Below, piece after piece: positions 1 through 59,420 of a stretch of DNA of 64,000 nucleotides. Within the stretch, counting starts at the first letter, position 1. Each line of letters begins with the position of its first letter. Where the stretch lies: assembly GCA_016791475.1 (NCBI GenBank), contig JAEUWI010000043.1, positions 1 through 64,000 of the forward strand, written 5' to 3'. Made by a program: the position numbers and the translations under genes. Under the pieces are notes generated by a model that made no database searches, was not told the origin of the DNA, and saw nothing but the letters and a program-made list of their open reading frames with translations. Source of the DNA: Candidatus Hydrogenedentota bacterium. GTDB taxonomy: Bacteria > Hydrogenedentota > Hydrogenedentia > Hydrogenedentales > JAEUWI01.

Positions 1-34
1 CTTACGTCCCTTACGTCCCTCCCGTCCCTGCCGC
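1..34. repeat. Short tandem repeat, cttacgtccc-like
   Basis: The window opens inside a short tandem array: two near-identical copies of a unit close to cttacgtccc, followed by degenerate cccgtccctgccg units. The array probably continues to the left, outside the window. It resembles the other low-complexity arrays found between genes in this segment. No coding function is seen. Confidence 0.6.
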
Positions 35-130: not shown

Positions 131-430
131 CGCCTGCGCGGAGAATGCCGTCCCCGGAACGCCGCTCCGACGCCATCCCCGACCAAATTCGACCAAACCG
201 ACCCAACCCGCAACTCTTAGCCACGAAGTGGCGACATAGCGTAGTCCGCCGTAGGCGGGTCGCAGACGCGCGCAGGCGGGTCGCAGACGCGCGCAGGCGG
301 GTCGCAGACGCGCGCAGGCGGGTCGCAGACGCGCCGCAGGCGGGTCGCAGACGCGCCGCAGGCGGGTCGCAGATCCGCCTGGGCGGAAAATGCAGTCCCC
401 GGAGCTCCGCTCCGACGCCCTCCCCGGCCA
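131..430. repeat. Pair of 55-nt direct repeats with a CCGGAGC core
   Basis: Positions 131-185 and 376-430 are imperfect copies of one 55-nt segment. Both begin cgcctg.gcgga, continue through a tccccggan.nccgctccgacgcc core and end in ccccg.cca. They lie 245 bp apart and bracket the 21-bp tandem array. A third, shorter relative lies near 1168-1196. The second copy contains the palindrome cggagctccg, so this may be a REP-like extragenic palindrome family. Copy relationships were judged by eye. Confidence 0.55.
251..373. repeat. 21-bp tandem repeat, six copies
   Basis: The string aggcgggtcgcagac starts at 253, 274, 295, 316, 338 and 359, giving periods of 21, 21, 21, 22 and 21 bp. There is no unique spacer between copies, so it is not a CRISPR array. 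The 22-bp step breaks the reading frame, which argues against a conserved repetitive protein. Confidence 0.85.
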
Positions 431-1366: not shown

Positions 1367-3247
1367 TCACCTACAGTCCACTGTAGGAACCCCAGCTCGT
1401 CTAAGAATTTCGTAAAGTTCATTAATACTGCTATTTCCCTGCGGCCTTCGTCCCCAGCGTTCATCTCGCACATCAGAGTAAGTGAAATACACTCGTTCAA
1501 TGGCACGGGAGAACGCGACGAAAAAGCCCCGTTTCTCTTCGTCAGGTTGATTTCTGAAAGACCACCATTGACTGTCCTCCAATCCGAGGAAGATGACCGT
1601 GTGAAATTCCAGCCCCTTGCTCTTGTGAATGGTCATTGCCGGAACCACGTCAACGCCAACCAAATCATCGACAGCCTCACGAGCCGAAGCAAAAGCTCCC
1701 ATCGAGACCTGCAATTCATCGGCAAAATTGTTGATTGTGGAATTCAGAAATGCACCCGTTCGATATTGTCCGTATACAGCTCGAAAGTGGGCTTCACCCA
1801 CCATTTCAATCAATTTTGTCAGTAGCCCCTCGACATATTGCCCAGACGTCAAAGTTTCCCTGGCATGCTGTACGAGCGCCACGCATCTCTTCTCAATCTG
1901 CGCCGTGTCGGCATTTTCATCCAGACCAAGGAGCATTGAAATAGTACTTGTTAGGATGTCCCAGGCTTCTGCGTCCCGGTTTCTGGTGCTCAACCGGAGT
2001 ACTGCAAGAAGGAAATGGACTACCGGTTCAATCAACAGATCTTGTAGTTGAGACTCATCACGAAGTCGAATATCACGTTTGGACAGCGCTTTCTTTAGCG
2101 TCTCAACCATTTCCCCTGTTCGTTGACGAACAATAATACAGAAATCCCGTGGTTTCATATCTTCATCGCGCAAGCCTGAAGCGATCAACTCAGCCACATA
2201 TTCAGCCTCAGCCTTGGGGTTCTTAAACTCAAGGATAGAACAACTTCCACTCGCGTCCACTTTTGCAGCCTGAGCTTGGGGCGCATCCGCCTCTATTGCC
2301 ATTGCTATGACTTGCTGCATCTGGACTAACTCAGGCGCAGACCTGTAGTTTCTAACCAATTCATGAGAAACCGCCTCAAAGTCAGTCATGTAAGTATCGA
2401 ACACCTCTGTCATCGCCCCCGCCCATACCATGATGCGCTGCTTGCTATCCCCGACGGCGGTCAATACCGATTCCGACCCGAGAAAGGCAGCACGAACTAA
2501 GTCATACTGTGAAGCGGTGGTATCCTGAAACTCGTCAAGAAAAACATGCGTGTAGGTTGTCCGGAGAGCCTGCGTCAGCTTTGGGTTGCTCCTCAGAAGG
2601 TACGCCGCCAAACGATTCAACATCGGAAACATCAGGCTCTCTTGACCTGCGGGCCTAGTCAGTTGCTCTTGCCACCACAAGCGCCCGAAATGCGCGTCTA
2701 ACGGATCCACATCGGGGCTGTCGTAAGGAAGCCTCGAACCGTAGGTAAAGGTCTCGAATCTACGTTTTAGCTCACCGTCAGGCAGATGACTTATGTCGGG
2801 TCCAGAATGGCCTGTGGGCAATCCGACGTTCTTCAGCCACGCGCGAATTCGGTTAACATCCGGCGAGCGGACCATTACCTCGTAATCGGCTTTCGGACGC
2901 CACTCCTTGGGCAAGGATAGCCTGAACCGGTCAACCAGGCCTTTGGCAAAGGCATCAAGAGTGAACGAATCAAAACGCTGGGCCCTGTCGCCGCACCGTG
3001 TTCGCACACGCTCGCTAAGGTTTTTTGCGGCATCTCGCTTGAAGGATATAGCAAGAATTCGATAAGGAGACTTGCAGGTACCCGTATCAAGCAGAAAACA
3101 CGCCCGCTGGGCAAGAAGTTCCGTCTTTCCAGCGCCTGGCCCAGCCGTTACAAGGGCATTCTGGCATGATTGAACCACTCGACTGGCCGCTGGCTCTAAG
3201 GAATCAACGCCAGCGGGAACCCAGAGTTCAGGCTGAATGAGCGCCAT
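1367..3247 (-). CDS. UvrD-like superfamily 1 helicase, GajB-like (Gabija / class 2 OLD partner)
   Basis: A 626-residue SF1A DNA helicase. Visible motifs are Walker A GPGAGKT (36-42), motif Ia ILAISFKRDAAKN, Walker B DEFQD (238-242), motif III VGDSKQRIMVWAGA, motif IV NYRSAPELV, motif V TIHKSKGLEFHTVIF and motif VI VAFSRAIERVYF (Arg 581). In Gabija/class 2 OLD systems such a helicase accompanies an OLD-family nuclease and the pair restricts phage. Here the start codon overlaps the stop of the nuclease gene (TGATG), which points to coupled translation and equal dosage. It is longer than the roughly 500 residues I recall for GajB, so it may carry extra 2A/2B insertions. A general repair helicase is the alternative, but the gene context argues against it. 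Confidence 0.85.
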   Translation of the reverse strand: MALIQPELWVPAGVDSLEPAASRVVQSCQNALVTAGPGAGKTELLAQRACFLLDTGTCKSPYRILAISFKRDAAKNLSERVRTRCGDRAQRFDSFTLDAFAKGLVDRFRLSLPKEWRPKADYEVMVRSPDVNRIRAWLKNVGLPTGHSGPDISHLPDGELKRRFETFTYGSRLPYDSPDVDPLDAHFGRLWWQEQLTRPAGQESLMFPMLNRLAAYLLRSNPKLTQALRTTYTHVFLDEFQDTTASQYDLVRAAFLGSESVLTAVGDSKQRIMVWAGAMTEVFDTYMTDFEAVSHELVRNYRSAPELVQMQQVIAMAIEADAPQAQAAKVDASGSCSILEFKNPKAEAEYVAELIASGLRDEDMKPRDFCIIVRQRTGEMVETLKKALSKRDIRLRDESQLQDLLIEPVVHFLLAVLRLSTRNRDAEAWDILTSTISMLLGLDENADTAQIEKRCVALVQHARETLTSGQYVEGLLTKLIEMVGEAHFRAVYGQYRTGAFLNSTINNFADELQVSMGAFASAREAVDDLVGVDVVPAMTIHKSKGLEFHTVIFLGLEDSQWWSFRNQPDEEKRGFFVAFSRAIERVYFTYSDVRDERWGRRPQGNSSINELYEILRRAGVPTVDCR

Positions 3248-5610: not shown

Positions 5611-6657
5611 CTACACCGCCACCACCCCACATCCCCCCTCCGCCGATGCGAACAATGCCGCCATAACCCGGTGACACGCCAAAGTCCGCTCGGGCCATTG
5701 CCCATCAACCTTCCCGTTCAGCACGATCCCCGAATAGGTCTCCACCAACTTCACCACATGATCGCAGGGTTCGACCTTCACTTCCACATCCTTGCCCATG
5801 ACATCGCCGAGGAAATAGTGTCCGCTGCCCACAAAGCGCCCTTCGTAGGCGGCGAAGTTGCCACTTCTTCCCTGGCCGCCGACCTGATCGTCCACGCGGA
5901 TGAGCCCGGTCTCGCCGACGACTTCAAACTGGGAGCGGTGGGGCAAAATACAGCCGCTGTCGAAGGTGGCCATGCGCCCGTCGGAGAACCAGAGGGTGCC
6001 GCCGCAGCCGACGATAGTGTCCACGGTGTTTTTGGAGATGTAGTTCATCTGCACGCGCTCGGGCAGGGCGTAGCCATAGGCCCATAGAATGGCGCCGATG
6101 GGATACCAGCCCTGATCGCCGAAGCAACCCATGGGCTCGCGGGTTTTGTCGGTGCGGCCGTTGCCCCCTTCAAGCCAGGCTTTGTCGGGATACTTGAAGG
6201 TAAATGCGGCAGTGACGCGCCGCACCGCGCCAATGTCGCCCGCCGCGATGCGCCGCTCGATGTCGTGGGTGCGCGTGCTGTGGACCCACATGGTGCCGTC
6301 CATGAATTGCACGCCCTTGTCGCGACACACCGCAATGGCCTCTTCAATACCGTCGGCAAAGGGCTTCTCGGCGTAGACGTGCTTCCCCGCTTCGGCGACC
6401 TTCTTGATCCATTCATTGCGCAGGGCGCTGGGCAGGGGAATGTAGACGGCGTCGATGCTGTCGTCGGCCAGCAACTCATCGTAGGACCCATAGGCCTTGG
6501 GCACGCCGTGGGCCGTTGCCCAGGCCTGGGCCTTGTCCAAAGAGCGACTGGCCACAGCCACGACTTCGGCGTTGGCCGCGTCGTGAAAACCCGCGACGAC
6601 TTTCGTGGCGATTTCGGCGGTGCTGAGGATGCCCCAGCGAACCTTGCGACTTTCCAT
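5611..6657 (-). CDS. Gfo/Idh/MocA-family NAD(P)-dependent oxidoreductase
   Basis: A 348-residue cytoplasmic dehydrogenase. The N-terminal Rossmann fold begins RWGILSTAEIATKVV and is followed by AVASRSLDKAQAWA. The family's catalytic-site motif EKP is at 97-99 (YAEKPF). The C-terminal half is the mixed alpha/beta substrate domain. The overall pattern resembles the sugar and dihydrodiol dehydrogenases (D-xylose 1-dehydrogenase-like), which oxidise a hydroxyl of a sugar or cyclitol using NAD(P). There is no signal peptide, unlike the Tat-exported relative at 38634-39971. The ATG at 6657 starts the fold directly. The exact substrate cannot be told from sequence. Confidence 0.85.
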   Translation of the reverse strand: MESRKVRWGILSTAEIATKVVAGFHDAANAEVVAVASRSLDKAQAWATAHGVPKAYGSYDELLADDSIDAVYIPLPSALRNEWIKKVAEAGKHVYAEKPFADGIEEAIAVCRDKGVQFMDGTMWVHSTRTHDIERRIAAGDIGAVRRVTAAFTFKYPDKAWLEGGNGRTDKTREPMGCFGDQGWYPIGAILWAYGYALPERVQMNYISKNTVDTIVGCGGTLWFSDGRMATFDSGCILPHRSQFEVVGETGLIRVDDQVGGQGRSGNFAAYEGRFVGSGHYFLGDVMGKDVEVKVEPCDHVVKLVETYSGIVLNGKVDGQWPERTLACHRVMAALFASAEGGCGVVAV

Positions 6658-7301: not shown

Positions 7302-8474
7302 ATGTTTACCAACGACAATCCCCTCAGCTACTGCACGAACATCCACGCGGGCACGGACTACGCCACCACGCTCGAAAACCTGGAGCGCTACGCCGTCGCC
7401 GTGAAGGCGCGCGTGTCGCCCGATAAGCCCATGGGCGTGGGGTTGTGGCTGCCCGCCTCGGCCGCGCGCGAGGTCGTGCAGCACGACCGCGCGGGCGCCC
7501 TGGCGGACTGGCTCGCGGAGCGCGGTCTGTGCGTGAATACGATGAACGGCTTCCCCTACGGCGATTTTCACCAGGCGGTGGTGAAGCATGCGGTCTACAA
7601 GCCCACCTGGGCCGACCTGGAGCGGCTGGACTATACGAAGGACTTGGTGCGCATTCTCGGGCGGCTGCTGCCGAAGGAGGCGGAGGGGAGCATTTCGAGC
7701 CTGCCCATCGGCTGGCCGGGCGAGGACGACGAACTAACCCTGCGCACGGCCGCGCGCCATCTGCTGGAGCTGGTGGATCACCTGGCGCGGGAAGAAGCCG
7801 CCACCGGCCACTGCATCCACCTCGACATCGAGCCCGAGCCCGGCTGCATGCTGGATACGAGCGAGGACATCATCCGCTTTTTTCACGAGCACCTGTTTAG
7901 TCACGGGAACGAGGCCCACATTACCCGCTACCTCCGCGTGTGCCACGACGTGTGCCATGCGGCCGTCATGGGCGAGGATCAGCTCGATGTTCTCCTGGCC
8001 TATCAGCATGCCGGCCTGCGTGTGGGCAAGGTGCAGATTTCATCCGCGGTGGAAGCGGATTTCTCCCGATTGGATTCGAGCCGAAATTCGGAGGCCCTTG
8101 CACAGCTCGCGGGCTTCCAGGAGCCGCGCTACCTCCACCAGACCGCCGTCACCAATGCGCTGCACCCCGGCGAAATGACGCTCTACGAAGACCTCCCCGA
8201 AGCGCTGGACGCTATCACCGGCGAATCCCTCGCGGAGCTGACCCTGCGCACCCACTTCCACGTGCCCCTCTTCCTCGAGCGCTTCGGCCACCTCCGCGCC
8301 ACGCAGGACGAGGTGCGCAAGTGCCTCCAGCACGTGGCGGAGTTCACCGACTGCAAACACTTCGAAGTCGAGACCTACGCCTGGAACGTGCTGCCAGTGG
8401 AACTGCGCGTGGACGATCTCGCCGAGGGAATCGCGAAGGAAATGCAGTGGGTGATGGATACGACAGCGAAATGA
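7302..8474 (+). CDS. eboE: EboE-like metabolite traffic protein (TIM-barrel sugar isomerase fold)
   Basis: A 390-residue protein starting MFTNDNPLSYCTNIHAG, the typical opening of EboE proteins (xylose isomerase-like TIM barrel). It carries motifs such as HLDIEPEPGC and HFHVPLF, with acidic and histidine residues that could bind a metal. EboE is part of the ebo cluster, which in cyanobacteria is needed to move a scytonemin precursor to the periplasm and is otherwise implicated in metabolite traffic. eboC and eboF follow on the same strand. There is no signal peptide. The assignment rests on recognised sequence style plus the eboC/eboF neighbours; its reaction is not established. Confidence 0.8.
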   Translation: MFTNDNPLSYCTNIHAGTDYATTLENLERYAVAVKARVSPDKPMGVGLWLPASAAREVVQHDRAGALADWLAERGLCVNTMNGFPYGDFHQAVVKHAVYKPTWADLERLDYTKDLVRILGRLLPKEAEGSISSLPIGWPGEDDELTLRTAARHLLELVDHLAREEAATGHCIHLDIEPEPGCMLDTSEDIIRFFHEHLFSHGNEAHITRYLRVCHDVCHAAVMGEDQLDVLLAYQHAGLRVGKVQISSAVEADFSRLDSSRNSEALAQLAGFQEPRYLHQTAVTNALHPGEMTLYEDLPEALDAITGESLAELTLRTHFHVPLFLERFGHLRATQDEVRKCLQHVAEFTDCKHFEVETYAWNVLPVELRVDDLAEGIAKEMQWVMDTTAK

Positions 8475-8478
8475 AGAT

Positions 8479-8551
8479 CTTTAACCACAAAGAACGCAAA
8501 GAGCACAAAGGATTTCTTTCTCTGTGTTCTTTGTGTTCTTTGTGGTTAAAA
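8479..8551. repeat. Long inverted repeat of the ACCACAAAGAAC type
   Basis: Left arm about 8480-8509 (ttaaccacaaagaacgcaaa then gagcacaaag) and right arm about 8523-8551 (tgtgttctttgtgttctttg then tggttaaaa) are inverted copies of about 28 nt around a 13-nt loop. The two differences are A/G changes that would form G-U pairs in RNA if the left arm is on the transcript. It sits between eboE and eboC, so the operon transcript would carry a very long hairpin. Confidence 0.85.
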
Positions 8552-8602
8552 GCTGCACTCTCTGATGTCTTTCAGCGTTGCCCATGCACAGGGACCGTCT
8601 AA

Positions 8603-9517
8603 ATGCCTCCGAAGTTCAAGGCCTATCTGCAACTTGCGCGGATCTCCAACCTCCCCACGGTGTTCTCAAATGTTCTGGTGGGTGCGGCGCTGGCAGTTGG
8701 GCCGACATCGCTGGATTGGGCGCTCGTATTCGCGGCCATATTCGCCGTGTCGCTTTTTTACATCGCCGGAATGGCCCTAAACGATTTACTGGATCGAAGT
8801 ATTGACCGCGTCGAGCGCCCCCAGCGCCCCATACCATCGGGTACACTCAGTGTAGGTGACGTAAGGAGCTTCACCGCAATATGTTTTTCCGGCGGAATGC
8901 TGATCCTAATTCTATGGGTTCCATGGGCAATTCTGCCGGGGCTAGCGTTAATTGCATCAATCACACTTTATAACTACTTCCACAAGCGATGGTCTGGCTC
9001 CCTCGTGTTCATGGGCTTGTGTCGCGCCCTGGTTTACATTGCCGGTGCAGCCGCAGTAACGGCAACATCAAATGAGTACCTGAATGAAACCGAAAACTAT
9101 GAAGTGATCTTTACAATAGGTTGGGCGTTGATGAATTGCGCCGCCCTCCTCGCCATCTACATCATCGCCCTAACCCTCGTCGCACAAAAGGAAGTCTCTG
9201 GCGGCCTGGGTTTCCGTCGCTGGCTCGCTGCGACGTTGGTGCTAATCCCCCTTCCCGCGCTGTGGTTCATGCCCACCCCCGACTGGCGCTGGACACTCCC
9301 CGCCATGCTTATCCTGAACCTGTGGCTCATTCGCTCCGCGCGCTTTATCTGGCAATCGCCGCCCCGGGTCGTCCCCGCCGTGCTGGGCTGGCTCGCGGGC
9401 ATATCCCTGTTAGACGCTTTTTTCCTGACCTTGACCCCTTTTCCCTGGCTGTCGCTGGTTGCCCTCGCGTGCTTCGCCGTAACGGTCTGGGGACACCGGA
9501 GAATTGCCGGCACATGA
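8603..9517 (+). CDS. eboC: EboC-like UbiA-family prenyltransferase
   Basis: A 304-residue integral membrane protein with about eight or nine hydrophobic segments. The first Asp-rich motif of UbiA enzymes is intact (N60-D61-x2-D64-x3-D68 in NDLLDRSID), followed by RPQRPIPSG. UbiA proteins transfer a prenyl chain from a prenyl diphosphate to an aromatic or other acceptor at the membrane. EboC is the UbiA member of the ebo cluster. The stop codon overlaps the eboF start as ATGA, showing translational coupling. The gene follows eboE by 128 bp, which contains the long inverted repeat. The prenyl donor and acceptor are unknown. Confidence 0.85.
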   Translation: MPPKFKAYLQLARISNLPTVFSNVLVGAALAVGPTSLDWALVFAAIFAVSLFYIAGMALNDLLDRSIDRVERPQRPIPSGTLSVGDVRSFTAICFSGGMLILILWVPWAILPGLALIASITLYNYFHKRWSGSLVFMGLCRALVYIAGAAAVTATSNEYLNETENYEVIFTIGWALMNCAALLAIYIIALTLVAQKEVSGGLGFRRWLAATLVLIPLPALWFMPTPDWRWTLPAMLILNLWLIRSARFIWQSPPRVVPAVLGWLAGISLLDAFFLTLTPFPWLSLVALACFAVTVWGHRRIAGT

Positions 9518-10899
9518 ACACGACCCACCACCCCACGGCGGTCATTCTGGCCGTCGGCCTGACCGAATCTCTCATCGGCGACGCCTGTCCGCGTATTCGC
9601 GATTTCGTGAAGGCGGGCGAGCTCCGACATTTGGAGCCCTCCTTCCCCGCCGTCACCACCACGGTGCAATCCTCCATGCTCACGGGCCTGCAACCGAATG
9701 AGCACGGTATCGTGGGCAATGGCTGGTACAACCGAGAGCTTTCGGAGGTCCAGTTCTGGAAGCAGTCCAATCCCCTCGTGCAAGGAAAGAAGGTCTGGGA
9801 CATCGCCCGTGACCGCGATCCTTCCTGCACCACGCTGAACATGTTCTGGTGGTACAACATGTATTCCTCCGTGGACTATTCCGTCACGCCGCGCCCGATT
9901 TACAAGGCCGATGGACGCAAGATTCCCGATTGCTACTCGTCCCCGCAGAACCTGCGCGATGAACTCCAGGCGGAGCTGGGCACCTTCCCCCTCTTCAACT
10001 TCTGGGGCCCGGCCTCGTCCATCAAATCCACCCAGTGGATTGCCGACGCCACCATCTATTGCCACAAGAAGCAGCGCCCCGGTCTTACCCTGGTCTATCT
10101 CCCCCACTTGGACTATTGCCTGCAAAAGCTCGGGCCGGAGCACGCGGACATCCCGAAATACGTCCGCGAACTCGATGGCGTCGTGGGTCAGCTCCTGGAC
10201 TACTTCCAGGGCGCGGGCGTGCGGCCCATCATCGTCAGCGAATATGGTATCGAGCCCGTGGACGACGCCGTCCACCCCAACCGCATCCTCCGCGAAGCGG
10301 GTGCTATCAGCATTCGCGAGGAAGAAGGTCTGGAACTCCTCGACGCGGGCGCGAGCGACGCCTTCGCGGTGTCGGATCACCAGCTCGCCCATGTCTACAT
10401 CAAAGATCCGTCGCGCATCGGCTACTACCACGATCTCCTCCGCGCCGTCCCGGGCGTGGAGCAGGTGCTGGACCGCGCGGGCCAGGCCGCCATCCACCTC
10501 GACCACGAGCGCAGCGGCGATCTGGTGCTCGTCAGCGAGGCGCGGCGCTGGTTCAGTTACTACTATTGGCGGGACGACGCCCGCGCCCCCGATTTCGCCC
10601 GGTGCGTGGACATTCACCGCAAGCCGGGCTACGACCCCGTGGAGCTTTTCCTCGATCCAAAGCTGGCTTTTCCCCCCGCCCACATCGTCTGGCGTCTGCT
10701 CAAGAAAAAACTCGGCTTCCGCACGCTTATGGACGTGATCCCCCTGGATGCCTCCCTCGTGCGCGGCTCCCACGGCCGCGTGGGGCAAACCCGAAAGGAG
10801 ATGCCCCTGCTGGTGTGCAAGTCTCCCGCGTCTGACCCGACACCGGTTCTTCCATGCACGGCAGTGCGGGACATCATACTAACGCATCTTTTCGATTAA
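9514..10899 (+). CDS. eboF: EboF-like alkaline phosphatase superfamily protein
   Basis: A 461-residue member of the alkaline phosphatase / nucleotide pyrophosphatase superfamily. Visible signatures are an N-terminal AVILAVGLTESLIG strand, SFPAVTTTVQSSMLTG (nucleophile Thr/Ser region), GNGWYNRE, a metal-site LVYLPHLDY, VSEYGIEPV and GSHGR near the C-terminus. The ATG at 9514 overlaps the eboC stop (ATGA) and starts just before the first strand; the open frame extends 131 codons further upstream inside eboC, which is not meaningful. It is the hydrolase normally found in ebo clusters and may cleave a phosphate ester of the trafficked metabolite. No signal peptide is seen. Confidence 0.8.
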   Translation: MNTTHHPTAVILAVGLTESLIGDACPRIRDFVKAGELRHLEPSFPAVTTTVQSSMLTGLQPNEHGIVGNGWYNRELSEVQFWKQSNPLVQGKKVWDIARDRDPSCTTLNMFWWYNMYSSVDYSVTPRPIYKADGRKIPDCYSSPQNLRDELQAELGTFPLFNFWGPASSIKSTQWIADATIYCHKKQRPGLTLVYLPHLDYCLQKLGPEHADIPKYVRELDGVVGQLLDYFQGAGVRPIIVSEYGIEPVDDAVHPNRILREAGAISIREEEGLELLDAGASDAFAVSDHQLAHVYIKDPSRIGYYHDLLRAVPGVEQVLDRAGQAAIHLDHERSGDLVLVSEARRWFSYYYWRDDARAPDFARCVDIHRKPGYDPVELFLDPKLAFPPAHIVWRLLKKKLGFRTLMDVIPLDASLVRGSHGRVGQTRKEMPLLVCKSPASDPTPVLPCTAVRDIILTHLFD

Positions 10900-48217: not shown

Positions 48218-49663
48218 CTACGCCAGAATTGGCTCGACGACATTTCCGAAGACGTCGGTCAGGCGGAAATCCCTTCCCTGGAATCGGAAAGTGAGCCTTT
48301 TGTGGTCGATGCCCATCTGGTGGAGCAGGGTGGCGTGGAAGTCGTGGACGGTCACGATGTCCTTCACGGATTTGTAGCCCAGTTCGTCGGTCTCGCCGTG
48401 GGTGATGCCGCCTTTGATGCCACCGCCGGCCATCCAGATGGAGAAGCCGTTCATGTGGTGGTCGCGGCCGGGTCCACCTTTGTTGCCCTGTACCATGGGC
48501 GTGCGGCCGAATTCGCCGCCCCAGACAATGATGGTGTCTTCGAGCATGCCGCGCTGCTTCAGATCGTTGACGAGGGCGGCGGTAGCCTTGTCCACGTCAT
48601 TCGCGCAGCCCTGCATGAAGTGCTTCAGGTCGTTGTGGTGATCCCAGTCGCGGTGGTAGAGCTGGATGAAGCGCACGCCCCGCTCGGCCATGCGCCGCGC
48701 GAGGAGGCAGTTGAAGGCGAAGGTGCCGTCAGCGCCTTGCGTTCCGTAGGCGTCGAGTATGTGCTGGGGCTCGTCGGAGATATCGACGAGATCGGGCACG
48801 CTCGTCTGCATGCGGAAGGCGAGTTCGTACTGGCTGATGCGCGTGGCGATCTCTCCCTCGTCCACATGGGCGTCGTGGATGGTGTTGAGGGCATTGACCG
48901 AATCGACGATATCGCGCTGTTGGCCGGGGGAGATACCGGGAGGGTTGCTGACGAAGTGAACGGGGTCGCCGGTGGACTGGAACTTCACGCCCTGGAATTT
49001 GCTGGGCAGGAAGCCGCTATGCCACTGGCGGGATGACAGCGGCTGGGGACTGCGGCCTTTGCCGAGGGAAGTCAGCACGATAAAGCCGGGGAGGTTTTCG
49101 CATTCGCTGCCGAGGCCATAGAGCAACCAGGAGCCCATGCTTGGGCGACCGGAGATGGCGGTACCGGAGTTCATGAAGGTGTGGGCGGGGTCGTGATTGA
49201 TCTGATCGGTCTTCATGGAGCGGATGATGCACATGTCGTCCGCGAGCGTGGCGATGTTGGGCAGCAGGGTAGAGATTTCCTGGCCCGACTTGCCGTAGCG
49301 TGCGAACTCGAACTGGGAGCCCATGCACTTGAGTTCGGCGCCCTGCAACTGGGCCAGTTGCTCACCTTTGGTGAAAGACTCGGGCATAGGCTGGCCGTCG
49401 AGCTGCCGGAGCGCGGGTTTGTAGTCGAAGGTTTCGAGATGGGAGGGTCCACCGGCCATGTAGAGGTAGATGATGCGCTTGGCCTTCGCAGGATGGTGCG
49501 TCGGGTTGGTGACGCCCGTCCAGCGCTCTGGTGTGGACGCGCCTGCCGAAAGCAGGCCGGGGTCCAGGAGCGAGGCCAACGCCATGGTGCCGATGCCTTT
49601 GGCGGTGCGGCCGAGGAACTGGCGTCGGGTTTGCTGGAGGATGTAGGTCTGTAAAGGGTCCAT
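48218..49663 (-). CDS. DUF1501 exported protein
   Basis: A 481-residue protein with an N-terminal twin-arginine-type signal (QQTRRQFLGRTAKGIGTMAL). The DUF1501 domain has the usual KRIIYLYMAGGPSHLETFDYKP opening, LSSRQWHSGFLPSKFQG, ERGVRFIQLYHRDWDHHN, WGGEFGRTP and the C-terminal HDFHATLLHQMGIDH..RFQGRDFRLTDVFGNVV. The fold belongs to the alkaline phosphatase/sulfatase superfamily; biochemical function is unknown. It follows the PSD1-type gene at 49840-52293 on the same strand, the standard pairing of these families. It is convergent with the kinase gene, only 5 bp apart. Confidence 0.92.
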   Translation of the reverse strand: MDPLQTYILQQTRRQFLGRTAKGIGTMALASLLDPGLLSAGASTPERWTGVTNPTHHPAKAKRIIYLYMAGGPSHLETFDYKPALRQLDGQPMPESFTKGEQLAQLQGAELKCMGSQFEFARYGKSGQEISTLLPNIATLADDMCIIRSMKTDQINHDPAHTFMNSGTAISGRPSMGSWLLYGLGSECENLPGFIVLTSLGKGRSPQPLSSRQWHSGFLPSKFQGVKFQSTGDPVHFVSNPPGISPGQQRDIVDSVNALNTIHDAHVDEGEIATRISQYELAFRMQTSVPDLVDISDEPQHILDAYGTQGADGTFAFNCLLARRMAERGVRFIQLYHRDWDHHNDLKHFMQGCANDVDKATAALVNDLKQRGMLEDTIIVWGGEFGRTPMVQGNKGGPGRDHHMNGFSIWMAGGGIKGGITHGETDELGYKSVKDIVTVHDFHATLLHQMGIDHKRLTFRFQGRDFRLTDVFGNVVEPILA

Positions 49664-49697
49664 GGTGGATCTCGCTGAGGACTATTGGGGGCACGGG

Positions 49698-49760
49698 TTA
49701 TGGGTCTTATGGGTCGTATGGGTCGTATGGGTCTTATGGGTCTTATGGGTCTTGTGGGAC
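49698..49760. repeat. 9-bp tandem repeat, seven copies
   Basis: Six copies of a nonamer, ttatgggtc or gtatgggtc, and a seventh degenerate copy, ttgtgggac, run without a gap in the 176-bp space between the PSD1-type gene and the DUF1501 gene. The unit is three codons long, so open frames pass through it. Similar short arrays lie near 34320 and at the window start. Confidence 0.85.
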
Positions 49761-49773
49761 CTTTGAGCGTTTG

Positions 49774-49818
49774 CGAAGCGGAGCTTCGGGGACCGCATTC
49801 CCAAGCGGAGCTTGGGAA
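49774..49818. repeat. Two hairpins with identical CGGAG loops
   Basis: CGAAG-CGGAG-CTTCG (49774-49788) and TTCCCAAG-CGGAG-CTTGGGAA (49798-49818) are perfect stem-loops whose stems differ but whose 5-base loop is the same. They follow the nonamer array in the leader of the DUF1501 gene, downstream of the PSD1-type gene. Conserved loop with changing stems suggests a selected structure rather than a plain sequence repeat. Confidence 0.7.
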
Positions 49819-49839
49819 CGAGTGGAACGGGTGAAACAT

Positions 49840-52293
49840 TCAATATCGATAAATCATCTCGTGGGTATTCAGTATTGTCCGGCTTACCGAACTCCAGGCG
49901 GCGAGCTGTATCGGGTCCATGCCTTCCGGGGTGGGCTTCTCCCCCACTTCCAGGAAGCTTGCGGCGGAGGCCGGGTCGCTGGCGAACTGGGCGAGATGCT
50001 TCTCATAGAGGTCGGCCAGAATCTGCGCCTCCTCCGGTCGCGGCGCGCGCGACAGGGCCTCGTTCCACGCCCAACGAACGCGATCAGCGGTGGTGTCGCC
50101 GCCCTCCGCCAGGATGCGCTCGGCGAAGACCCGCGCGGCTTCGACGTAGATGGGATCGTTCATGAGGGTCAGGGCCTGCTGGGGGGAATTGGAGATGGTG
50201 CGCTCGGCGGTGCACTCCTCCCGAGTCGGCGCGTCGAAGGCGAGCAGGCTCGGGTGCAGGTAGGTCCGTTGCCAGTGGGTGTAGACGCCGCGGCGGTACA
50301 AGTCCTGCCCCGTGCTGGGCTCGTATTCCCGCGTGGGGAAATTCAGTTCTTTGTAGTAACCTGCCGGCTGGTAGGGCTTCGCCGCCGGACCGCCCATGGC
50401 GGGCGAGAGCAGTCCGCTGACCTTGAGGGCGTTGTCGCGCACGAACTCGGCCTCAATCCGGAAGCGGGACTGTCGCGCGAGGAGACGATTGGCGGGGTCG
50501 CGCTCTTTGAGGACTGCGTCGGCCATGGAGGACTGTCGGTAGGCGCTGCTGGTCACCATCAGTCGTGCAAGGTGCTTGATATCCCAGCCGCTGTCCATGA
50601 ACTCGATGGCGAGATAGTCCAGCAACTCCGGATGCTTCGGCCACTCGCCTTGCGAGCCCAGATCGTCCAGCACGCGGGAGATGCCGGTGCCGAAGTAGAG
50701 CTTCCACAGTCGATTCGCAAAGACTCGGGCCGTCAGGGGGTTCTCGCGATCGGTGAGCCAGTTGGCCAGATCGAGGCGCGTGGGTCGCGCGCCATTGAGC
50801 CAGAGTCCGCCGAGAAATTCGGGCACACCCGGCTCCACCACTTCGCCGGACTCATCCATCCAGTTGCCGCGAGGCAACACGCGGACGGTGCGCGGCTCCA
50901 TGGTCTCGGTAATCACTGAAGTGTAGATGTTCTGCTCGAAGCTGAATTTCTTCTTTTCCGCTTCCTTGAGTTGCTTTTCCAGATCTTCGCGGCCTGGAGT
51001 CGGGGGTGCGCCTTCGGTGGAGACCGGAGGAGCCACGGCGGGAGGCGCCGTGGCAAGGGCGGTCTTCAGATCGGCGATGCGCTGCAGGATGGCGTCGTGC
51101 TCGGGTTTTTCCTGGGCATTGGGAAACACGAGGTAGGGCGGGAAGGGACCCTCGTTTCCGCCTTCATTCTGGACACCCATCTCCTTGATATCGGAAAAAA
51201 AGGCGCCGAAGCGATAGAAATCCCGAATGGTGAAGGGGTCGAACTTGTGGTCGTGGCACTGGGCGCAGCCGAGAGAGGAACCGAGCCAGACGGAGGCGGT
51301 GGTGCGCGTACGATCCGCCGCATAGCGCACGACGTAGTCCTGCTCCTGCGCGCCGCCCTCGCGGGTCACCATATTGAGGCGGTTGTAACCCGTGGCGATA
51401 CGCTGGGCTTCCGTGGGCTCCGGCAGCAGATCGCCGGCGAGTTGCTCGCGGGTGAACTGATCGAAGGGCATGTTGTCGTTGAAGGCTTTAATCACATAAT
51501 CGCGGTAGGGCGCAACGCCGCGCACCTGGTCGCCGTGATAGCCGACGGTGTCGGCGTAGCGCACGAGATCCAGCCAGTAGACGGCGAGGCGCTCTCCGAA
51601 GTGGGGCGAGGCGAGGAGCCGGTCCACCAGGGACTCATAGGCCTGGGGCGAGTTGTCGAGGAGAAAGGACTGGACCTCGGAAGGTGTGGGCGGTATACCG
51701 AGGAGGTCGAAATAGAGGCGGCGGATCAGGGTTTCGCGGGTGGCTTCAGGCGCGGGCTTGAGGCCTTCCTTTTCCAGGTTTGCGAGGATAAACGTGTCGA
51801 TTGGGTTGCGCGACCATGCGGCGGCCTTGACGGTCGGGGTCGAAGCGGCTTTCGGCTTGATATAGGACCAGTGGGGCTCGTATTCCGCACCCTGGGCGAT
51901 CCAGCGTTTGAGCAGTTCCAGTTCGCGGGGTGAAACGTGGCGGTTGGAATCTGCGGGCGGCATCTTGTCGTCGGGATCGTCGGTTATGATACGCGCAATG
52001 ACCTCGCTGGCCCCTGTGTCGCCCGGCGCAATGGCACGGAGTCCCTCTCGATCCACGGTCGCTTCTGCGCGCAGGTCCAGTCGAAGCCCGGCCTTGCGCA
52101 TGTTCCTATCCGGGCCGTGGCATTGGAAGCATTTATCGGAGAGGATGGGGCGAATATGGCGGTTGAATTCCACGCGTTCGGGCAGGGGATCTTCCGCGTG
52201 CGCGAGTGCCGAGAGCGCAAGCAGCGCGGCAATGAGAATGTTGGATCGTACAGCTTTCAAAACATGGGTTCCTCGACCTCGTGCCTGTAGCAT
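49840..52293 (-). CDS. PSD1-type cytochrome c protein (DUF1549/DUF1553)
   Basis: An 817-residue exported protein. After a signal peptide (NILIAALLALSALAHA) comes a planctomycete-type cytochrome c domain with haem motif C55-F-Q-C-H59. The DUF1549 domain follows (SPVDTFIL-like NPIDTFILANLEKEGL, RRLYFDLLGIPPT, HFGERLAVYWLDLVRYADT) with a second CxxCH, CAQCHDHKFDP, and then DUF1553 (TRLDLANWLTDRENPLTARVFANR, SSAYRQSS). Such proteins are abundant in Planctomycetes and relatives and are thought to serve redox or polysaccharide-related work outside the cytoplasm. The ATG at 52293 is used; a TTG twelve codons later with AGG upstream would start directly at the signal peptide. Confidence 0.92.
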   Translation of the reverse strand: MLQARGRGTHVLKAVRSNILIAALLALSALAHAEDPLPERVEFNRHIRPILSDKCFQCHGPDRNMRKAGLRLDLRAEATVDREGLRAIAPGDTGASEVIARIITDDPDDKMPPADSNRHVSPRELELLKRWIAQGAEYEPHWSYIKPKAASTPTVKAAAWSRNPIDTFILANLEKEGLKPAPEATRETLIRRLYFDLLGIPPTPSEVQSFLLDNSPQAYESLVDRLLASPHFGERLAVYWLDLVRYADTVGYHGDQVRGVAPYRDYVIKAFNDNMPFDQFTREQLAGDLLPEPTEAQRIATGYNRLNMVTREGGAQEQDYVVRYAADRTRTTASVWLGSSLGCAQCHDHKFDPFTIRDFYRFGAFFSDIKEMGVQNEGGNEGPFPPYLVFPNAQEKPEHDAILQRIADLKTALATAPPAVAPPVSTEGAPPTPGREDLEKQLKEAEKKKFSFEQNIYTSVITETMEPRTVRVLPRGNWMDESGEVVEPGVPEFLGGLWLNGARPTRLDLANWLTDRENPLTARVFANRLWKLYFGTGISRVLDDLGSQGEWPKHPELLDYLAIEFMDSGWDIKHLARLMVTSSAYRQSSMADAVLKERDPANRLLARQSRFRIEAEFVRDNALKVSGLLSPAMGGPAAKPYQPAGYYKELNFPTREYEPSTGQDLYRRGVYTHWQRTYLHPSLLAFDAPTREECTAERTISNSPQQALTLMNDPIYVEAARVFAERILAEGGDTTADRVRWAWNEALSRAPRPEEAQILADLYEKHLAQFASDPASAASFLEVGEKPTPEGMDPIQLAAWSSVSRTILNTHEMIYRY

Positions 52294-55117: not shown

Positions 55118-57973
55118 ATGGTAGTGAGAGAGCAATACCACGATACCCCCCGCAGCCTTGCGTTGGCCTGTGGTACGTTTCGGACGGCGCTGTTGGCGGG
55201 CGCGATGTGCCTGGCCCCCTGGGGCGTGGTCCCCCATGCGGCGCCGATTGCGGAGCAGGCCGCGTCGGCGGAGAGCGAACGGTTCTTCGAGACGGAGATT
55301 CGTCCGGTGCTGTCTGAGCGGTGCTATGCCTGCCATGGCCCCGCCCAGGCTCTCGGTGGAATCCGCCTCGACGAATCGCCCGGTCCGTCCGCTGAATCGA
55401 TGCGGGCGATGCTCCAACCAGGTGCGAATGCCGCCCATCCCCCGACGTCGCTTCCGACGGCGGAGCTGGAATTGCTGCTGGAGTGGACGAGTCGGGGCGC
55501 GCCTCGACCGGCGCCAGCCAAGCGCAGTTATCAACGTCTCTCCATGGATGAGCTCGTCGCGGTGACCCGGGAAAATCACTGGGCGTTTCGACCGGTGCAA
55601 AATGCCGCGCCGCCCGCCGTGGGGAACGGCGCCTGGGTCCAGTCTCCCGTGGACACCTTCATTCTCGCATCCCTCGAAAAGGTCGGCCTCGCGCCCTCGG
55701 CGGAAGCTTCCCGCGCCGCGTTAATCCGGAGGGCCTACCACGATCTTCTTGGACTGCCCCCGACACAGGCGGAAATTGTCGCCTTCGAGAGCGACCCCTC
55801 CCCAACGGCCTACGCGGATTTGATTGATCGGCTGCTCGCGTCACCGCGATTTGGCGAACGCTGGGGGCGTCACTGGCTCGATGTGGCGCGCTACAGCGAC
55901 ACCAAAGGGTCGGCCTTTGCCGAAGAGCGGCTCTTTCCCTTCGCGCACACCTATCGGGACTACGTGATCCGGGCCTTCAACGAGGATCTGCCCTACGACC
56001 GGTTTATTGTCGAGCAACTGGCCGCCGACAAGTTACCCCTTGGGGACGACAAGCGCGCGCTGGCCGCGCTTGGCTTCCTGACGCTGGGGCGGACCTTTGG
56101 CGGCCAGATACACGACCGAATGGACGACCGGATCGATGTGGTGACGCGGGGGCTGCTGGCGCTCACGGTAAGTTGCGCGCGCTGCCACGATCATAAGTTC
56201 GATCCCATCCCCACGGCGGACTACTACTCGCTCTATGGCATCTTCCGCAGTTCACGAGAGCCTGCGGAACTGCCACTGATCGGTGAACCGGACATGGAGT
56301 CGCCCTCCTATAAGGAGTACCTTCAGGGACTCGCCGAGCTTGAGACGGCGCTGGCGCGGGATGAAGCGGCCGCGGTCAATAATCCGGCATTGCAGGGCAA
56401 ACTAGGGCAACGCCGCGCGGCGGTTGAAAAGTTCAAGAACACCCACCCGGGCCGTCCGGATCGGGCCATGGCCCTGGAAGACGCGCCGGCGTTGTTTGAC
56501 CCCGCGATCTTTCTGCGGGGCGATCCCAATCGCCCCGGCGACGCGGTTCCCCGGCGCTTTCCGGCGGTGCTGGAGCGTGGTGAACGCAGCGCGTATACGG
56601 CTGACAGCGGCCGCCTGGACCTGGCCCGGGCGATTGCGAGCCGGGAGAATCCGTTGACCGCACGGGTCTTTGCGAACCGGGTTTGGATGCACCTTTTCGA
56701 TAAGCCGCTGGCGGGCACGCCGAGTGATTTCGGCCTTCAGGGCGAAGCGCCGACCCACCCGGAGTTGCTGGACCATCTCGCGTGGAGTTTCATGGAGCAT
56801 GGCTGGTCCGTGAAGCACCTGATTCGCTCCATCATGCTTTCCAGCACGTATCGGCAGTCCAGCGACGTGAACAAAGGCGGGCTGGCTCTGGATCCCGAAA
56901 ACAAGCTTCTGTGGCGACAGAACCGGCGTCGTCTTGGCTTCGAAGCGATGCGAGATCACCTGCTGGCGGCTTCGGGAAATCTTGACTTGCGCATGGGGGG
57001 CATCGCGACGAATATCACGCTACCCCCGTACAGCAACCGGCGCACGATCTACGCGGAGGTTGATCGCGAAGCGCTCCCGGCGATGTTCCGGATCTTCGAT
57101 TTCGCCACGCCCACGACCCACACCCCGGCGCGCTTCGAGACCACGGTACCCCAGCAGGCCCTGTATCTGATGAATAATCCCTTTGTAGCGGAGCAGGCGC
57201 GACATGCGGCGGCTCGCCCCGAAGTGCTAAAGGAGACTTCGCCCCCGGAGCGGGTGCGTGCGCTCTACCGCGCGCTGTTGAATCGAGAAGCCCTCGCCCG
57301 TGAGGTCGAGCTTGGCGTACAGTTTGTGGCGGGGCAGGACGTGGCGGAAACGCATGTGCCGGAACGCGAGGCCCCCCGGTGGCTCTATGGCTATGGAAGG
57401 CTGGACGAGACCCGGAGCCGTGTGGCCGCGTTTACGGAGCTGCCCCACTGGACGGGGGAGGCGTTTCAGGGCGATGCGAAGCTCCCCGGTGCGACACTGG
57501 GCTGGGCCATGCTGAACCGGCTCGGCGGCCGACCGGGCGACCCGCAGCACGCGGTGATCCGCCGATGGATTTCGCCGGTAGTTTCCAAGGTGGCGGTGGT
57601 GGGCGAACTTTATCACTACTCCTCCGCGGGGGATGGCGTGAAGGGCTATATCGTCTCCAGCAGGAGCGGAGTATTGTGGCAGGGCGAGGTGCAGGATGGA
57701 ATGCTGCCCACGGTGGCCGACGAGAGCGAGATCCGCGCGGGCGACACGATTGACCTCGTTGTCGAGTGCAAGAAAAACGAACAGGAGGACCTGTTCCGTT
57801 GGCATCCGCGGATCTACCTGACCGGGGACAATGCGAGCCAGTTCGCGCGGCAGGACTGGATCTCGCGATTTGATTTCGAGGGGCCACCACCCGCGCCGCC
57901 GATACCGCTGCAACCCTGGGAGCAGTACGCACAGGTGCTCCTGATGAGCAATGAGTTTATTTTTGTTGATTGA
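55118..57973 (+). CDS. PSD1-type cytochrome c protein (DUF1549/DUF1553), long form
   Basis: A 951-residue exported protein, longer than its relative at 49840-52293. After a signal region (TALLAGAMCLAPWGVV) come a haem motif C69-Y-A-C-H73 in an SERCYACHGPAQALGGIRLD context, DUF1549 (SPVDTFILASLEKVGLAP, RRAYHDLLGLPPT, RFGERWGRHWLDVARYSDT), a second haem motif CARCHDHKFDP, and DUF1553 (RLDLARAIASRENPLTARVFANRVW, SSTYRQSS). The extra C-terminal ~150 residues look like a beta-sandwich add-on (VVSKVAVVGELYHYSSAGDG), perhaps carbohydrate-binding. The DUF1501 gene follows after 19 bp, so the two are an operon. Confidence 0.92.
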   Translation: MVVREQYHDTPRSLALACGTFRTALLAGAMCLAPWGVVPHAAPIAEQAASAESERFFETEIRPVLSERCYACHGPAQALGGIRLDESPGPSAESMRAMLQPGANAAHPPTSLPTAELELLLEWTSRGAPRPAPAKRSYQRLSMDELVAVTRENHWAFRPVQNAAPPAVGNGAWVQSPVDTFILASLEKVGLAPSAEASRAALIRRAYHDLLGLPPTQAEIVAFESDPSPTAYADLIDRLLASPRFGERWGRHWLDVARYSDTKGSAFAEERLFPFAHTYRDYVIRAFNEDLPYDRFIVEQLAADKLPLGDDKRALAALGFLTLGRTFGGQIHDRMDDRIDVVTRGLLALTVSCARCHDHKFDPIPTADYYSLYGIFRSSREPAELPLIGEPDMESPSYKEYLQGLAELETALARDEAAAVNNPALQGKLGQRRAAVEKFKNTHPGRPDRAMALEDAPALFDPAIFLRGDPNRPGDAVPRRFPAVLERGERSAYTADSGRLDLARAIASRENPLTARVFANRVWMHLFDKPLAGTPSDFGLQGEAPTHPELLDHLAWSFMEHGWSVKHLIRSIMLSSTYRQSSDVNKGGLALDPENKLLWRQNRRRLGFEAMRDHLLAASGNLDLRMGGIATNITLPPYSNRRTIYAEVDREALPAMFRIFDFATPTTHTPARFETTVPQQALYLMNNPFVAEQARHAAARPEVLKETSPPERVRALYRALLNREALAREVELGVQFVAGQDVAETHVPEREAPRWLYGYGRLDETRSRVAAFTELPHWTGEAFQGDAKLPGATLGWAMLNRLGGRPGDPQHAVIRRWISPVVSKVAVVGELYHYSSAGDGVKGYIVSSRSGVLWQGEVQDGMLPTVADESEIRAGDTIDLVVECKKNEQEDLFRWHPRIYLTGDNASQFARQDWISRFDFEGPPPAPPIPLQPWEQYAQVLLMSNEFIFVD

Positions 57974-57992
57974 TGGGTAATAGGAGTCTGCG

Positions 57993-59420
57993 ATGCATCC
58001 GGAACGAACCGTGAACGACTTCATACTGAGCCGCCGGGATTTCCTGCGGCGGACCGGCATGGGCTTTGGCGCGCTGGGTCTGGCCACGCTGGCGGGGCCG
58101 GGCGCGACGCCTGCGGCGGCGGGCGCCTCTACGCCGAGGCCGCACTTCGCGCCAAGGGCCAAGCGGGTTGTTCATATCTTCCTGAACGGCGGCATGTCCC
58201 ACGTGGACACCTTCGACCCGAAACCCCTGCTGGCGAAGTACGACGGCACGAAGTTGCCGATGGAAGATATCATGACGGAGCGCCCCACGGGCGGCGCGTA
58301 CGCTTCGGAGTTCACCTTCCAGCAATATGGCCAGAGCGGGATCCCGGTGAGCAATCTTTTTCCGAATCTGGCGAAGTGTGTGGACGACCTGTGCGTCATA
58401 CGGTCCATGCACACGGACAATCCCGTCCACGGGCCTTCGCTCCTGATGATGAACTGTGGTGATGGGCGTCTCCCCCGCCCCAGTGTGGGCTCTTGGGTGA
58501 CCTATGGTCTGGGCACGGAAAACGAGAACCTGCCGGGTTTCATTTCCATGTGCCCCGGGGGCTACCCCACGGCCGAGGCCCAGAACTGGCAATCCGGCTT
58601 TTTACCCGGCAATTTTCAGGGCAACTACATCGACTCCAAACACACCGATGTTGAGAAGCTTGTCGAGAACATCAAGAACCACTTCGCCACCTCGCGCGGG
58701 CAACGGCGGCAGCTCGATCTGCTGAGCGAACTGAACGAAATGCACCGCGGCACGCGGGCGCAGGACGCCGCCATCGAAGCGCGCATCCAGTCTTTCGAAC
58801 TGGCCTATCGCATGCAGATCGACGCGACGGACGCCTTTGACTTGAGCCAGGAGCCGGAGTACCTCCGCACGCTGTATGGAAACACGGAACAGTCCCGCCA
58901 GTTACTCATTACGCGGCGCCTGCTTGAACGGGGCGTCCGCTTCGTGCAGCTTTTTCACGGCCCCGGTCAGCCCTGGGACAGCCACGACGACATCGTGGTG
59001 GCCCACAAGCGCCTGGCGGGCCAGTGCGATCAGGGCATGGCTGCCTTTCTGATGGACTTGAAGCAGCGGGGCATGCTCGAAGACACGCTGGTGCTTTGCG
59101 TGGGTGAATTCGGTCGCACGCCCACGGTGGAAGTGCAGCAGGAAGGCATCAACGTTGGCAAACCCAAGGGCCGGGATCACAACCACTATGGTTTCACCGC
59201 GTGGATGGCGGGCGGCGGTGTAAAGGGTGGCTATATCCACGGGGCTACGGACGAATTCGGCTTCAAGGCCGTGGAGAAGCCTGTGCACGTCCATGACCTG
59301 CACGCCACGCTGTTGCACCTGATGGGCTTTGACCATGAAGCCCTGACTTATCGCTATGCGGGCCGGGATTTCCGGCTCACCGATGTTCACGGCAACGTGG
59401 TGCATGACATTATCGCGTAG
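57993..59420 (+). CDS. DUF1501 exported protein
   Basis: A 475-residue partner of the PSD1-type protein before it. Its N-terminus SRRDFLRRTGMGFGALGLAT is a clear twin-arginine signal. The DUF1501 domain shows KRVVHIFLNGGMSHVDTFDPKP, WQSGFLPGNFQGNYID, ERGVRFVQLFHGPGQPWDSHD, VGEFGRTP, RDHNHYGFTAWMAGGGVKGG and HDLHATLLHLMGFDHEALTY. TAGGAG six bases before the ATG fixes the start. It is homologous to the protein at 48218-49663 but belongs to a separate unit. It ends 5 bp before the convergent GNAT gene. Confidence 0.92.
   Translation: MHPERTVNDFILSRRDFLRRTGMGFGALGLATLAGPGATPAAAGASTPRPHFAPRAKRVVHIFLNGGMSHVDTFDPKPLLAKYDGTKLPMEDIMTERPTGGAYASEFTFQQYGQSGIPVSNLFPNLAKCVDDLCVIRSMHTDNPVHGPSLLMMNCGDGRLPRPSVGSWVTYGLGTENENLPGFISMCPGGYPTAEAQNWQSGFLPGNFQGNYIDSKHTDVEKLVENIKNHFATSRGQRRQLDLLSELNEMHRGTRAQDAAIEARIQSFELAYRMQIDATDAFDLSQEPEYLRTLYGNTEQSRQLLITRRLLERGVRFVQLFHGPGQPWDSHDDIVVAHKRLAGQCDQGMAAFLMDLKQRGMLEDTLVLCVGEFGRTPTVEVQQEGINVGKPKGRDHNHYGFTAWMAGGGVKGGYIHGATDEFGFKAVEKPVHVHDLHATLLHLMGFDHEALTYRYAGRDFRLTDVHGNVVHDIIA

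Follow-up and report, generated by a model that had tools for sequence, protein, structure and literature searches.

The ebo genes are genetically required for export of the scytonemin monomer in Nostoc, where alone the loss of export in mutants has been shown (PMC6282210). Their ABCDEF-type operon occurs in Bacteroidota and Cyanobacteria, for instance on the Aureibacter plasmid pAT1 and in Nostoc punctiforme (PMC6282210). PMC5133447 describes the replacement of eboA by eboG as an operon variant of Deinococcus and others, puts forward an isoprenoid cyclitol as the ebo product and labels EboF a putative hydrolase. In addition, according to PMC9235831, the ebo-cluster protein UbiA-297 of Maribacter farnesylates 8-hydroxyquinoline-2-carboxylic acid in vitro. 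Here we have analysed three ebo genes, eboE, eboC and eboF, in the first 64 kb (hereafter the window) of contig C43 (71.3 kb) from a Hydrogenedentota draft genome, G000 (7.7 Mb, 529 contigs, 96.2% complete). We consider it likely that this genome holds a complete eboG-type set in the order D-G-B-E-C-F, that its first half, found on contig C99, lies most likely just upstream of the window, and that the set would work by the mechanism proposed below.

The eboE, eboC and eboF genes of the window

The original prediction had placed these three genes side by side at 7302-10899, with an ATGA overlap between eboC and eboF, and the profile scores confirmed the gene assignments:

7302..8474, + strand: eboE, TIM-barrel (xylose-isomerase-like) protein, 390 amino acids; NCBIfam NF035939, 436.9 bits (cut-off 250)
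8480..8550, + strand: hairpin with a 28-bp stem, a palindromic CACAAAGA-type repeat in the eboE-eboC gap; RNA minimum free energy of the gap -55.1 kcal/mol, z -8.2
8603..9517, + strand: eboC, UbiA-superfamily membrane prenyltransferase, 304 amino acids; PF01040, 77.2 bits (cut-off 34.2), and tree
9514..10899, + strand: eboF, protein of the alkaline-phosphatase superfamily, active-site letters altered, 461 amino acids; PF01663, 197.6 bits (cut-off 23)

The ATGA at 9514-9517 provides both the eboC stop and the eboF start, and eboE and eboC are separated by 128 nucleotides; the gap ahead of eboE measures 644 nucleotides. This EboE is the only one in the genome, and it matched no solved structure at E 0.01. 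The hairpin of the eboE-eboC gap has no second copy within the window; partial copies of the CACAAAGA-type repeat were seen between eboD and eboG on C99 (L004 9909-9924) and by the eboE-eboC gap of the congener G003 (L008 9186-9201).

The remaining ebo genes of the genome

As had been predicted, eboA, eboB and eboD are not found in the window. We observed, however, that another contig of this genome, C99, has eboD, eboG and eboB in succession at its 3' end. The idea of a partial cluster or reduced system thus has to be abandoned in favour of the other option that the original prediction had offered, namely that the remaining genes lie elsewhere, with eboG in the place of eboA.

A DHQ-synthase domain search of the genome returned two genes, on C16 and C99. 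The C99 protein scored 481.6 bits with the EboD model NF004852 (cut-off 333) and the C16 protein stayed under that cut-off. EboB of C99 is a TatD-like protein (PF01026, 32.9 bits, cut-off 27) with conserved metal-site-like residues, 56-57% identical to Deinococcus EboB and 91-92% identical to EboB of congeners. In the whole genome, EboB-like matches were confined to C99 and a decayed fragment on C17. The latter (G000:C17 103867-104094, in L042) is the C-terminal piece of a second eboB, with 76% identity over 82 residues, and none of the other ebo genes was found around it in 12 kb. The genome-wide search that the original prediction had called for therefore yielded eboB and eboD and failed to yield EboA; the EboA search is weak alone, since it matched none of its 14 controls either. 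A second EboA profile gave no convincing match over the ebo loci.

The small gene between eboD and eboB on C99 is homologous to its Deinococcus counterpart by profile search. Indeed, an EboG profile made from the Hydrogenedentota protein and its EboB-locus relatives, with Deinococcus left out, gave 82.7 and 70.2 bits with the small proteins of two Deinococcus plasmids, and its top score on 1,100 shuffled sequences was 13.5. This gene is most likely eboG, a name that rests on its position and on the Deinococcus operons; operons of this type would then have exchanged eboA for eboG rather than lost it. The EboG sequence matched nothing in Pfam or PDB. Its structure model, for which 47 of the 70 listed sequences were aligned, is mostly helical (predicted local distance difference test, pLDDT, 82.2) and showed no convincing match to solved structures (best Foldseek E 4.8; VIA Z 2.9).

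We then surveyed 68 Hydrogenedentota species genomes, all of one order. EboE occurs in 4/68, the EboD type over cut-off in 5/68 and EboB-like matches in 6/68, one of these merely a contig-end fragment. All three are present in G000, in its congeners G003 and G004 and in G029, from another Hydrogenedentota family; a further congener, G005, has B and D. Hydrogenedentota can thus probably be added to the holders of the eboG-type operon. We also considered the sugar-type genes that precede eboD on C99, which were not taken as partners because they recur only partly in G003 and were not seen in G004.

Gene order in relatives and the probable junction of C99 and C43

The closest described arrangement is the eboG-type operon of Deinococcus. 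In the plasmids of Deinococcus AB2017081 and QL22 (NZ_CP140100.1, NZ_CP097151.1) the order D-G-B-E-C-F is uninterrupted, and the same unbroken order was found in G029, so that the comparison with relatives proposed at the outset was fruitful. The genome under study shares with Deinococcus the six genes, their order, eboG in place of eboA and the EboF signature described below. It differs in that its genus has a spacer between eboB and eboE, occupied here by Gabija and Gfo/Idh genes and by a contig break. The ABCDEF-type operon has homologues of B, C, D, E and F in common with our genome, but it carries eboA where the latter has eboG and its gene order differs; the window EboC, which lies under the NF035940 cut-off, is only 24% identical to Aureibacter EboC. 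The ebo-like clusters of Streptomyces plasmids share EboB, EboE and EboF with the same signature, and have inositol-3-phosphate synthase for EboD, a SCO3242-type UbiA for EboC and EboA for EboG.

The start of the window holds the following features:

5..31, + strand: tail of a 9-bp CGTCCCTNN array with which the contig opens; the C99 3' end has a matching array
1367..3247, - strand: GajB of the Gabija pair, adjoining GajA; PADLOC, 707 bits
3247..5331, - strand: GajA of the Gabija defence pair, inserted DNA; PADLOC, 744 bits; low GC at third codon positions
5611..6657, - strand: Gfo/Idh/MocA oxidoreductase gene beside eboE; PF01408, PF22725 and synteny

A single contig of G004 holds D-G-B, a spacer of about 3 kb and E-C-F, and it ends within eboF. 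The two halves of G003 are on different contigs, D-G-B at a distance of 3.1 kb from the C11 start and eboE 3.9 kb short of the C10 end, and their orientations would allow the contigs to be joined; such placement of both halves near contig ends has a rough chance of 0.0008. G005 carries D-G-B and a Gfo/Idh gene on one contig, and in the window and in G003 the Gfo/Idh gene stands beside eboE. As for the repeat, the three-unit CGTCCCTNN pattern occurs in seven arrays on six contigs of the genome (C12, C15, C43, C55, C97 and two on C99), of which only those at the C99 3' end and the C43 5' start are at contig ends, both in the same orientation. Because of these matching contig-end arrays and of the order in relatives, C99 and C43 are most likely neighbours, eboB and eboE being separated by inserted DNA (Gabija genes included) and by an assembly break. 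From the sequences we infer this adjacency, as well as co-transcription of the genes.

The EboF active site

The nearest solved relatives of EboF are the phosphonoacetate hydrolase PhnA (1EI6) and nucleotide pyrophosphatase/phosphodiesterase (2GSN), with which it shares the PF01663 fold. The canonical residues of PF01663-type phosphodiesterases bind two metals. When we aligned EboF to both structures, we observed that it keeps the nucleophile threonine and one aspartate, and has V instead of D in DGL, Q instead of H in D-x-x-x-H and E-Y instead of D-H in SDHG, that is, four of the seven active-site letters of the superfamily are replaced (D->V, H->Q, D->E, H->Y). The last histidine of EboF (GSHG) we take to be the seventh site residue.

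The four replacements are present in 25/25 EboF, which all show the set V-T-D-Q-E-Y and keep T, D and the last H where the sequence reaches. These 25 comprise 16 proteins (one ending before the last histidine) and nine from actinobacterial plasmids, of which two, differing in the residue before VGL, were read by alignment. They span Hydrogenedentota, Verrucomicrobiota, Phycisphaeraceae, Deinococcota, Bacteroidota, Pseudomonadota, Actinomycetota and Gemmatimonadota, cyanobacterial EboF being outside the set. Six PF01663 proteins of the genome were inspected, the window EboF and five others: three with the canonical DG and SDHG, one with D-x-x-x-H only and one weak match without any of them. A structure model of EboF (pLDDT 48.6, from 4 sequences) was not used. 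The signature would contradict the usual hydrolase annotation; the terms "active site" and "catalytic residue" are absent from PMC5133447.

Alternation of EboD and inositol-3-phosphate synthase

We compared 27 ebo loci, chosen because they hold several ebo genes or as plasmid EboE matches. Inositol-3-phosphate synthase is found in 0/15 loci with EboD and in 10/12 loci without it, these ten not being ten independent events since many of the 27 loci are related Streptomyces plasmids. They are nine loci from Actinomycetota and that of Gemmatirosa (Gemmatimonadota, with eboG); Pfam confirms the enzyme in 3/10, Gemmatirosa included, and in five others the records give it this name. Neither enzyme was found in two exceptions, L228 (eboE alone) and L232 (matches to A, B, E and F, no UbiA found).

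The superfamilies of EboD and of inositol-3-phosphate synthase each make a cyclitol from a sugar phosphate. Since both enzymes form a cyclitol, their alternation supports the isoprenoid-cyclitol hypothesis, suggesting a product made of a cyclitol and a prenyl group. The word "inositol" is absent from PMC5133447 and PMC6282210, and we found no literature report of a link between ebo and inositol in a search that left subscription journals mostly uncovered, so that the link may already be known.

Tentatively, and as something close to an even call that we would not press, we propose that the ebo pathway has one fixed need, a cyclitol from a sugar phosphate. It would be met by EboD in most phyla and by inositol-3-phosphate synthase, replacing EboD, in Actinomycetota and one Gemmatimonadota genome. 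An EboC-like UbiA would then prenylate the cyclitol to give an ether-lipid-like carrier. EboF would have an alkaline-phosphatase fold in which the site underwent a single remodelling and has been preserved across phyla ever since; rather than a normal two-metal hydrolase, it may be a protein that binds a phosphate ligand or performs different chemistry.

Among the Streptomyces plasmids two further observations were made. The lone eboE of L228 (Streptomyces sp. NBC_01244 plasmid) has aromatase/cyclase and FAD-dependent monooxygenase genes as neighbours, and no further ebo gene was found in 13 kb. The ebo-like clusters L145, L223, L224 and L225 are flanked by genes for a ScyD/ScyE family protein and a multicopper oxidase, reminiscent of scytonemin loci.

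A proposed mechanism

The EboD-type score, the metal-site-like residues of EboB, the UbiA membership of EboC, the alternation of EboD with inositol-3-phosphate synthase and the literature led us to the following proposal. EboD, a sugar-phosphate cyclase, would form a cyclitol, which, or the precursor of which, would be modified by the metal-dependent EboB and the TIM-barrel EboE. The membrane prenyltransferase EboC would add a prenyl chain. EboG, small and helical, may aid assembly. EboF, with its alkaline-phosphatase fold and rebuilt site, may bind or process a phosphate-bearing intermediate. The resulting prenyl-cyclitol would act at the inner membrane, either carrying a cargo or modifying it.

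Evaluation of alternative explanations

Several points speak against a complete set at a single, interrupted locus that works in this way. The chemistry of the mechanism and its cargo are all deduced. EboF is devoid of the canonical two-metal residues and fits a simple hydrolase role poorly. EboC, in the NCBIfam ranking, has NF035940 (EboC) as its best match with 102 bits, under the cut-off of 250. No exact overlap exists between the ends of C99 and C43. In G005 we found no EboE match and a different gene after its Gfo/Idh gene. Finally, scattered ebo sets are common in Verrucomicrobiota, so that a real split in our genome would not be odd.

As regards function, the ebo proteins might be the translocation machinery itself, or only makers of secondary metabolites, instead of providing a prenyl-cyclitol carrier. 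This is a serious possibility, though we think it somewhat less likely than not. According to the review PMC9655573, E. coli with the Pseudomonas EDB cluster makes indole compounds, and the EDB cluster contains an ebo cluster (PMC6282210). However, the ebo set includes no recognised transporter, five of its six proteins resemble enzymes or have enzyme-like folds, and EboD alternates with another cyclitol-forming enzyme.

The main rival as regards arrangement is a set that is complete but truly split, with D-G-B and E-C-F as two loci of this genome. To evaluate it we searched wider genome contigs for EboB and kept the best 80 of 410 relatives as loci. With our own thresholds, and with loci ending at 10-kb flanks or contig ends, the gene counts are lower bounds: EboG lies on the EboB strand in at least 75/80, EboE in at least 36/80 and all six genes in at least 3/80. 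We then chose 26 of these 80 loci, of which 18 lack EboE and 8 include it, for whole-genome EboE searches. EboE was found in 26/26 genomes, in 25 over cut-off, and in 18 of the 26 it lies outside the EboB locus, as in Rubritalea profundi, where EboB and EboE are about 2.3 Mb apart on a single 4.16-Mb scaffold. Such a split agrees with the lack of an exact overlap between C99 and C43, but the two halves share one contig in the congener G004, the contig-end CGTCCCTNN arrays match, and G005 and G003 bridge the halves through the Gfo/Idh gene. We therefore regard a true split as unlikely, and maintain that the two contigs most likely adjoin.

A generic UbiA and a generic phosphodiesterase could also have followed eboE by chance, which we hold to be very improbable. 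The original prediction had already raised this assignment to other families. Its doubt was answered for EboE, which is well over its cut-off, and was in part upheld for EboC, best matched by NF035940 but below cut-off, and for EboF, which has no ebo name in NCBIfam. The next NCBIfam matches of EboC were SCO3242 prenyltransferase (94.2 bits) and geranylgeranylglycerol-phosphate geranylgeranyltransferase (65.7 bits). The NF035940 model, which is no part of the published definition of the gene set, seems to cover the ABCDEF-type EboC, because the EboC records of the two Deinococcus plasmids likewise carry only the name "UbiA family prenyltransferase". A quick tree built from 31 UbiA proteins placed the window EboC with those of the other Hydrogenedentota (support 100), and the remaining three UbiA of its genome lie across a branch with support 85, among long branches; this gives modest support for grouping the window EboC with ebo-linked UbiA, apart from the other UbiA of the genome. 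Moreover, the order E-C-F is repeated in G003, G004, G029 and Deinococcus, and the window EboF is 48-55% identical to nine ebo-linked EboF from five other phyla, with an identical active-site signature. The identity and signature of EboF and the UbiA tree thus disfavour generic genes.

Lastly, a reduced three-gene system working with E, C and F alone, suggested only by their physical isolation in the window, is practically excluded by eboD, eboG and eboB in the same genome and in congeners (EboB 91-92% identical), barring a mis-binned C99.

Inserted DNA and other features of the window

The spacer between eboB and eboE carries defence genes in two congeners and is perhaps a preferred site of insertion. 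That of G003, following eboB, encodes a protein matching the candidate defence family PDC-S13 with 395 bits (L040 1980-2870). A Gfo/Idh gene is found near an ebo half in three of four congeners and was not found near ebo in G004; that of the window shares 27% identity over 139 residues with one of the two Gfo/Idh proteins adjoining the ebo genes of Ketogulonicigenium.

No cargo gene or biosynthetic cluster was recognisable among the 20 further window proteins scanned, so that the search for co-occurring biosynthetic genes that had been suggested came to nothing, and an Rfam scan of the window gave no match. We also noted a tandem array of a 21-bp unit (5.9 copies, window 247-373) near the contig start, and two sets of DUF1501 and PSCyt2/PSD1 (Planctomycete-type) genes in opposite orientation (window 48218-52293 and 55118-59420).

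Implications for ebo biology

A system that looks reduced would here be complete but masked by inserted DNA and a break between contigs, which calls for caution with draft genomes. The hydrolase annotation of EboF should not be trusted without an assay. If the alternation of EboD and inositol-3-phosphate synthase reflects a common need for a cyclitol, inositol 3-phosphate, which retains its phosphate, would give EboF a ligand. The alternation makes the cyclitol hypothesis directly testable, and bears on the question of what the widespread ebo genes make.

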